Below, one piece after another: positions 38,806-40,466 of a stretch of 45,220 nt of DNA (position 1 is its first letter; each line of letters opens with the position of its first letter). Where the stretch lies: contig DAHVQK010000027.1 in the NCBI GenBank assembly GCA_027317845.1, positions 1 through 45,220 on the forward strand, written 5' to 3'. The notes below the pieces were generated by a model. The model saw nothing but the letters and a program-made list of their open reading frames with translations, did not search any database and had not been told where the DNA came from. This stretch comes from Gammaproteobacteria bacterium (GTDB taxonomy: Bacteria > Pseudomonadota > Gammaproteobacteria > Steroidobacterales > Steroidobacteraceae). The translations under genes were made by a program, and so were the position numbers.

Positions 38806-39690
38806 TCAGGCGGGAACCGGCTCGGGCGTGAGCAGGCCGCGCAGCTTCCCGAGGGCGTTGGCTTCGATCTGGCGGATCCGCTCGGCGGATACGCCGTATT
38901 GGTCGGCCAGCTCGTGAAGGGTCGCCTTGTCGTCGCTCATCCAGCGCCGCTGCAGGATGTCGCGGCTGCGCGTGTCGAGCCGCTCGAGCGCGGTGCGCAG
39001 CTGCGCGGAAGTCTCGTGTTCCCACTCCGAGCTTTCGACCTGCTCCGCCGGGTCGGCTTCGGGAGCGGGCAGATAGGCCGCGGGACTGTAGGACTCCTCC
39101 TCGTCCGCATCGGGCGCGGGATCGAACGACAGATCATGCGCCGCGAGACGCTTCTCCATCTCGTTCACTTCGCTGGGGGTCACGCCCAGGTCCCGCGCCA
39201 CCGCCGCGGTCTCCTCGGCCGACAACCAGGTGAGGTTCTTCTTCAGACGGCGCAGATTGAAAAAGAGCTTGCGCTGAGCCTTGGTGGTGGCGATCTTGAC
39301 CAGGCGCCAGTTGCGCAGCACATATTCGTGGATCTCGGCACGGATCCAGTGCACCGCGAAGGACACCAGGCGGACGTTCAGCTTGGGGTCGAACCGCTTC
39401 ACGGCCTTCATCAGCCCGACATTGCCTTCCTGGATGAGGTCGCCGAACGGCAGGCCGTAGCCCCGATAGCCCCGGGCGATGTGCACCACGAAGCGCAGGT
39501 GCGACAACACCAGCTTGCGGGCGGATGCGAGATCTTCCTGGTCGCGGTAGCGCTCGGCGAGCGCGCGCTCCTGCTCCCGGTCCAAGACGGGAATGCGGCT
39601 GACCCGGTCGATATAGGCATCGACGCTGCCGACCGGGCCGGTGAGCGCCAGGTCGCAGGGCCGGGCGACCAATGCTGTGCTTGCGGTCAT
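38806..39690 (-). CDS. rpoH: RNA polymerase sigma-32 factor
   Basis: QEGNVGLMKAVKRFDPKLNVRLVSFAVHWIRAEIHEYVLRNW; RpoH-box-like QRKLFFNLRRLKK; region 4 LHELADQYGVSAERIRQIEANAL; ATG at 39690. Confidence 0.92.
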   Translation of the reverse strand: MTASTALVARPCDLALTGPVGSVDAYIDRVSRIPVLDREQERALAERYRDQEDLASARKLVLSHLRFVVHIARGYRGYGLPFGDLIQEGNVGLMKAVKRFDPKLNVRLVSFAVHWIRAEIHEYVLRNWRLVKIATTKAQRKLFFNLRRLKKNLTWLSAEETAAVARDLGVTPSEVNEMEKRLAAHDLSFDPAPDADEEESYSPAAYLPAPEADPAEQVESSEWEHETSAQLRTALERLDTRSRDILQRRWMSDDKATLHELADQYGVSAERIRQIEANALGKLRGLLTPEPVPA

Positions 39691-39719
39691 GCGTGCTCCG
39701 AGACTCTTGAGGGGAAATA

Positions 39720-39746
39720 TTAGCACTCACGATATTCGAGTGCTAA
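39720..39746 (-). promoter_or_regulatory. CIRCE element (HrcA operator)
   Basis: TTAGCACTC-acgatattc-GAGTGCTAA: exact 9-N9-9 inverted repeat; overlaps a possible rpoH promoter (minus strand TTAGCA-18 nt-TAATAT). Confidence 0.9.
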
Positions 39747-39893
39747 TCCGCCCAATAGGTTCCCCGTGGGTGGCCCCAAAGGGGGAGGGGGCGAAGCGTG
39801 AACTAAACCGTAGCCACCATTTCCAAGAGTGCTCAGGTTTTCGTCAGGATCTTCCTTTATCGTCAGCGGCGCAACCGCTTCACAGGTATCCCC

Positions 39894-40466
39894 ATGCACG
39901 GCCCGTCCCTCCGCCCGACCTCCATCACCCTGGCCGCCCATCAGAACTACGACGGCCTCAGCATTCTTCTGCATTGGCTCACGGCCTTCCTGGTGATCAG
40001 CCTGTGGACGCTCGGCCAGACCTTGAGCTATTTCCCGAAGGGCGCGCCCCGCGACGCGGCGCTTTCGGTGCACATCCTGTTCGGAATCACGGTGGGCGCG
40101 GTCCTCCTGGTCCGCATCGCGTGGCGCTCGAGCGCCGGCCGCCGCCTGCCACCGGCCGATGCCGGCTGGCCGGGCCGCCTGGCCCAGAGCGCCCATCATG
40201 GGCTCTACGTCCTGCTGCTCGTGACGGTGGCTCTCGGTCTATCGCGCGTCTGGCTGCACGGTAACAGCGTGTTCCACTGGTTCTCGTTCCCCAAGCCCGC
40301 TTTCAGCACGTGGAAGCTGACGCGGACGATCGGGGGGTTGCACGGCGATCTCGCGGACATCGTGGTCATCGTGGCGGGCCTGCACGCTGCCGCGGCGCTC
40401 GCGCACCACTATCTCCTGGGGGATTCGGTACTGAGGCGGATGCTGCCCGGAAAGCGCAAGGGGTGA
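39894..40466 (+). CDS. cytochrome b561 family protein
   Basis: ILLHWLTAFLVISLWTLGQ, VRIAWR, LPPADAGWPGRLAQSAHHGLYVLLLV, LHAAAALAHHYLLGDSVLRRMLP with conserved His residues. Confidence 0.9.
   Translation: MHGPSLRPTSITLAAHQNYDGLSILLHWLTAFLVISLWTLGQTLSYFPKGAPRDAALSVHILFGITVGAVLLVRIAWRSSAGRRLPPADAGWPGRLAQSAHHGLYVLLLVTVALGLSRVWLHGNSVFHWFSFPKPAFSTWKLTRTIGGLHGDLADIVVIVAGLHAAAALAHHYLLGDSVLRRMLPGKRKG

Follow-up and report, generated by a model that had tools for sequence, protein, structure and literature searches.

The rpoH locus and its CIRCE operator

The window (the whole stretch of DNA analysed, 45,220 nucleotides) exhibits a minus-strand ORF for the sigma factor RpoH (sigma-32), the product of which matches the RpoH profile TIGR02392 with 404 bits (cut-off 323). 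Its closest homologues in the public genome collection are those of unclassified Gammaproteobacteria and of a Steroidobacteraceae MAG, which places the organism probably within Steroidobacterales or close to it. The divergently transcribed neighbour (39894-40466) encodes a cytochrome b561 by Pfam PF01292 (85.5 bits, threshold 30.1); with NCBI's narrower b561 equivalog it scores 76 bits, short of the 170 required. The features of the locus are collected in Table 1. Longer rpoH ORFs, starting at GTG codons inside the operator described below (39726 and 39730), were set aside because the homology with relatives begins at the ATG.

Table 1. Features of the rpoH locus and its upstream region (positions in the window)
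Feature	Position	Strand	Basis
rpoH (sigma-32), 294 aa	38806..39690	-	ORF list; RpoH profile
Shine-Dalgarno-like GGAG of rpoH	39696..39699	-	sequence
Possible sigma-70 -10, TAATAT (right-arm end and three flanking bases)	39717..39722	-	flank kept at rpoH, not at groES
CIRCE operator (predicted HrcA site), 9-9-9 palindrome	39720..39746	-	perfect match; kept in relatives
Sigma-E-type -10, TCGAAT	39734..39739	-	TCNNA frequency at rpoH versus groES sites
Possible sigma-70 -35, TTAGCA (within CIRCE left arm)	39741..39746	-	sequence; inseparable from operator conservation
Sigma-E-type -35, GGAACCT	39757..39763	-	GAAC spacing at rpoH sites; composite match 39720-39762 in own genome

Between the two genes lies a perfect CIRCE element, TTAGCACTC-N9-GAGTGCTAA, separated by 29 bp from the rpoH ATG (39690, minus strand). 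A scan of the window found this single copy with no mismatch and no second match even when up to three mismatches were allowed, and CIRCE occurred in none of 100 dinucleotide shuffles of the window. The ORF coordinates agree as well, so that the mismatch-free CIRCE reported at this distance by a first-pass annotation of the sequence is confirmed. The same site is the sole CIRCE (at most three mismatches) in the 1.9-Mb source MAG, which is about 63% complete.

The MAG contains a single hrcA gene (G000:C48:5494-6162, 219.6 bits in a profile search), which exhibits no CIRCE of its own in the genome scan at up to three mismatches. Downstream of this hrcA (L002) comes a grpE-like gene, and a nadK-like gene is divergent from hrcA. 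A groES gene was not detected in the MAG, as fits its 63% completeness, and the organism's own regulon therefore cannot be completed. Of the two things that the first-pass annotation had suggested looking for in the same genome, hrcA is thus present, and further CIRCE copies were not found in this 63%-complete assembly. The sequence-level features expected of a member of the HrcA/CIRCE regulon come together at the site: a motif free of mismatches, hrcA in the genome, a position in the promoter or leader of a heat-shock gene, and conservation. The presence of hrcA and the conserved palindrome give good computational support to the earlier proposal that HrcA controls sigma-32.

Conservation upstream of rpoH

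CIRCE was found at up to two mismatches in 59 of 60 relatives, typically in two copies. In the relatives examined, one copy directly precedes rpoH and the second lies in front of groES. Conservation of the palindrome in close relatives had been named beforehand as a test, and the element indeed precedes rpoH in nearly all congeners and in nearly all members of the order. The groES-type copies listed in the window's genus mostly read TTAGCAGCC...GAGTGCTAA (two mismatches), against zero to two mismatches for the rpoH copies; rpoH thus often has the better operator. The arrangement extends beyond the order. Among 79 rpoH loci with upstream sequence in the public genome collection, 49 exhibit CIRCE at up to two mismatches, including those of Thioalkalivibrio, Crenothrix, Plasticicumulans and Woeseiaceae; the Halomonas and Pseudomonas loci of this set have no CIRCE at that threshold.

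A predicted sigma-E-type promoter overlapping the operator

Alignment of the rpoH operators reveals GGAACTT, GGAACC or TGAACT at one distance from CIRCE. Of 72 sites picked solely by rpoH homology and CIRCE, and therefore blind to GAAC, 62 have this tetranucleotide beginning 15 or 16 nt ahead of CIRCE; its background frequency is about 0.2% per position. Immediately after the left arm NNA is favoured, and joined to the TC that ends the arm these loop bases read TCNNA. The resulting layout at rpoH is GAAC(TT)-N16/17-TCNNA. TCNNA occupies the -10 spot at 108 of 120 main-type rpoH sites versus 1 of 22 groES sites; these counts come from 147 dereplicated sites, of which 30 had been preselected by the composite pattern described below, and the GAAC frequency of this larger set is accordingly not unbiased. 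In the window the -10 is likewise made of the TC of the left arm and the first loop bases, with a spacer of 17 nt (16 in most relatives), and the elements GAACCT-N17-TCGAAT depart by one step each in -35, spacer and -10 from the best sigma-E form, in which the spacer is 16 nt and the -10 begins with TCT. This predicted sigma-E-type promoter, which the first-pass annotation missed, is a feature of fixed spacing with its -10 inside the operator.

At five rpoH sites (L072, L203, L206, L247 and L250) the operator is located 15 bp further downstream, just past the sigma-E -10, and GAAC-N15/16-TCNNA is kept intact. Promoter and operator are therefore two separate modules. The corresponding sigma factor gene is present: the MAG has one clear copy of rpoE (G000:C119:7666-8220, 293 bits, above the cut-off in a profile search), preceded by TGAACTT-N16-TCTATTC. 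The motif TGAACTT-N16-TC[TC]ATTC also occurs upstream of rpoE in eleven congeners, and in these and the MAG it lies mostly some 76 to 92 nt ahead of the point where the profile match begins.

We consider it likely, from the layout of these sites, that CIRCE overlies an rpoH promoter whose main partner is sigma-E in a P3-like configuration, that the palindrome probably also accommodates a weaker promoter of the sigma-70 type, and that HrcA gates transcription from there. The second promoter had been proposed by the first-pass annotation as TTAGCA-N18-TAATAT on the minus strand. The hexamers are there: A[AC]T directly after the rpoH operators generates TAANAT-like sequences 18 nt from TTAGCA. 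At the right boundary, TA[AG]N[AC]T is found at 109 of 120 main-type rpoH sites and at all five displaced ones, versus none of 22 groES sites, and it persists in some decayed rpoH sites. TTAGCA-N18-TAATAT is thus a plausible second, overlapping promoter and a reasonable candidate for recognition by sigma-70, although it is not the whole story, given the sigma-E-type promoter at fixed spacing. If HrcA repressed rpoH solely through these hexamers and the GAAC box were something else, their retention at rpoH, their absence at groES and their survival in decayed sites would all be accounted for. Such a view leaves unexplained, however, the rpoH-specific GAAC at 15-16 nt and the loop TCNNA, as well as the agreement with E. 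coli P3 in both form and spacing, and we regard it as improbable.

Composite sites and the presence of hrcA

The composite pattern, GAAC-N10..12-CIRCE, was searched for with few substitutions allowed. It was found in 107 of 370 sampled Gammaproteobacteria, and a reversed control pattern gave no match in the same 370. In all 30 composite loci that were fetched, an RpoH homologue starts downstream in the same orientation, at a distance of 24-283 nt (tblastn with the window RpoH as query). Being strict, the pattern misses sites: 32 of 44 rpoH upstream regions from genomes with hrcA and no composite match exhibit CIRCE at up to two mismatches, many of them carrying TTGGCACTC with the same GAAC spacing. 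Outside the Gammaproteobacteria, the composite was found in 1 of about 135 genomes (loop GCGGAGGTT).

A profile search detects hrcA in 277 of the 370 Gammaproteobacteria. All the composites fall in these genomes (107/277 with hrcA versus 0/93 without; Fisher P = 4e-17). Likewise, hrcA is present in 22 of 24 tested genomes with CIRCE at rpoH versus 5 of 26 without it; the latter five indicate that the arrangement is not obligatory. At L073, L089 (from Nitrococcus), L094, L105 and L107, where hrcA is present and rpoH has no CIRCE, the link was either lost or never formed. Conversely, L271 and L223 retain a CIRCE at rpoH that is intact or almost so in genomes called hrcA-negative, a call that relies on one profile search of draft genomes. 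In L271 (G227) the CIRCE is perfect and the genome 97% complete, which points to a missed gene, a recent loss or another binder.

These data also bear on two further readings of the palindrome. A 9-bp stem can form in the rpoH leader, and in E. coli the translation of rpoH is controlled by mRNA structure; the element might accordingly act as an RNA hairpin governing stability or translation instead of as a DNA operator. However, where the stem is broken, the commonest cause is a G-to-C change at position 20, which produces a C-C mismatch with no compensating substitution (18 of 147 sites); moreover, the palindrome is tied to the presence of hrcA, and the groES operators have the same 9-9-9 form. 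A hairpin function is therefore very unlikely. The operator can hardly serve the cytochrome b561 gene, alone or together with rpoH; the first-pass annotation had thought an additional effect on this gene conceivable. The two genes do share the intergenic region that holds the operator, and the b561 ATG is 147 bp away, but its promoter elements face rpoH, and a b561 role is unsupported because the operator stays with rpoH where the upstream neighbour is ftsX, pirin, an ABC permease or a transposase.

A predicted two-input circuit

Returning to an HrcA-gated, mainly sigma-E-type promoter, the expected behaviour can be outlined. HrcA is activated by GroEL in other bacteria. When GroEL is in surplus, active HrcA would cover the -10 region or regions and hold rpoH down. 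Misfolded protein occupying GroEL would deprive HrcA of its activity, and rpoH would then be transcribed, most strongly when envelope stress has also freed sigma-E, which would drive rpoH only once HrcA has released the operator. RpoH would in turn activate groESL, whose own CIRCE abuts a sigma-32 promoter, and newly made GroEL would restore HrcA activity. HrcA would thereby act at two tiers, rpoH and groESL, as a coherent feed-forward repression within a negative feedback loop. At groES operators of the same order a sigma-32-type sequence, CTTGAAA...CTATTA, does abut CIRCE. To judge from these promoter sequences, HrcA apparently gates a sigma-E promoter at rpoH and a sigma-32 promoter at groESL.

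What is known of sigma-32 regulation comes largely from work on E. coli, a species that lacks HrcA. In many Gammaproteobacteria two inputs to sigma-32, a GroEL-dependent repressor and the sigma factor of envelope stress, appear to converge on a single element some 45 bp long. The composite thus suggests a circuit specific enough to be tested, and the E. coli rpoH P3 may plausibly derive from such an element.

Relation to known systems

The site shares with the known HrcA/CIRCE regulon (groESL and hrcA-grpE-dnaK-dnaJ operons) the identical operator consensus, the presence of hrcA and, in relatives, a second site at groES. It differs in that its target is the gene for sigma-32, that hrcA of the MAG has no CIRCE, and that the relatives mostly exhibit two sites (rpoH and groES where examined).

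Permina and Gelfand (2003/2004), the most likely earlier source, may already list gammaproteobacterial sites with CIRCE upstream of rpoH. In the literature searched, which covered few subscription papers, we found no report of the composite of CIRCE and a sigma-E promoter at rpoH. In Geobacter sulfurreducens, then placed in the delta-proteobacteria, a perfect CIRCE was predicted in 2004 at -51 from the rpoH translation start (PMC545781). The first-pass annotation was therefore right to refrain from calling the arrangement unprecedented. That perfect CIRCE before rpoH resembles ours, but it belongs to a distant lineage, is listed for one Geobacter genome only, and no sigma-E promoter was reported alongside (PMC545781).

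The rpoH gene of E. coli K-12 is preceded by GAACTT-N16-TCTGAT, which we take to be P3. Its resemblance to the GGAAC-N16/17-TCNNA described here is close in both form and spacing. In contrast, E. coli has no CIRCE at rpoH, and the HrcA profile, run as a control, gave no E. coli match. P3 is transcribed by RpoE, which was first identified through this promoter (PMC8103513).

Three loci from genomes called hrcA-negative (L233, L237 and L244) exhibit worn CIRCE copies between the sigma-E -35 and rpoH. In these relics GAACTT and a left arm of the kind TTGGCACTC are still recognisable next to an eroded right arm, the pattern that decay of CIRCE following hrcA loss would leave. We tentatively suggest, rating the chances at slightly below even, that in early Gammaproteobacteria rpoH was driven by a sigma-E promoter fused with an HrcA operator, and that E. 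coli P3 would be the remnant of this fusion after HrcA loss. If true, the textbook control of rpoH by sigma-E would be half of an older two-input gate.

As a separate observation, two loci (L112 and L151) exhibit two CIRCE-like palindromes in tandem upstream of rpoH.
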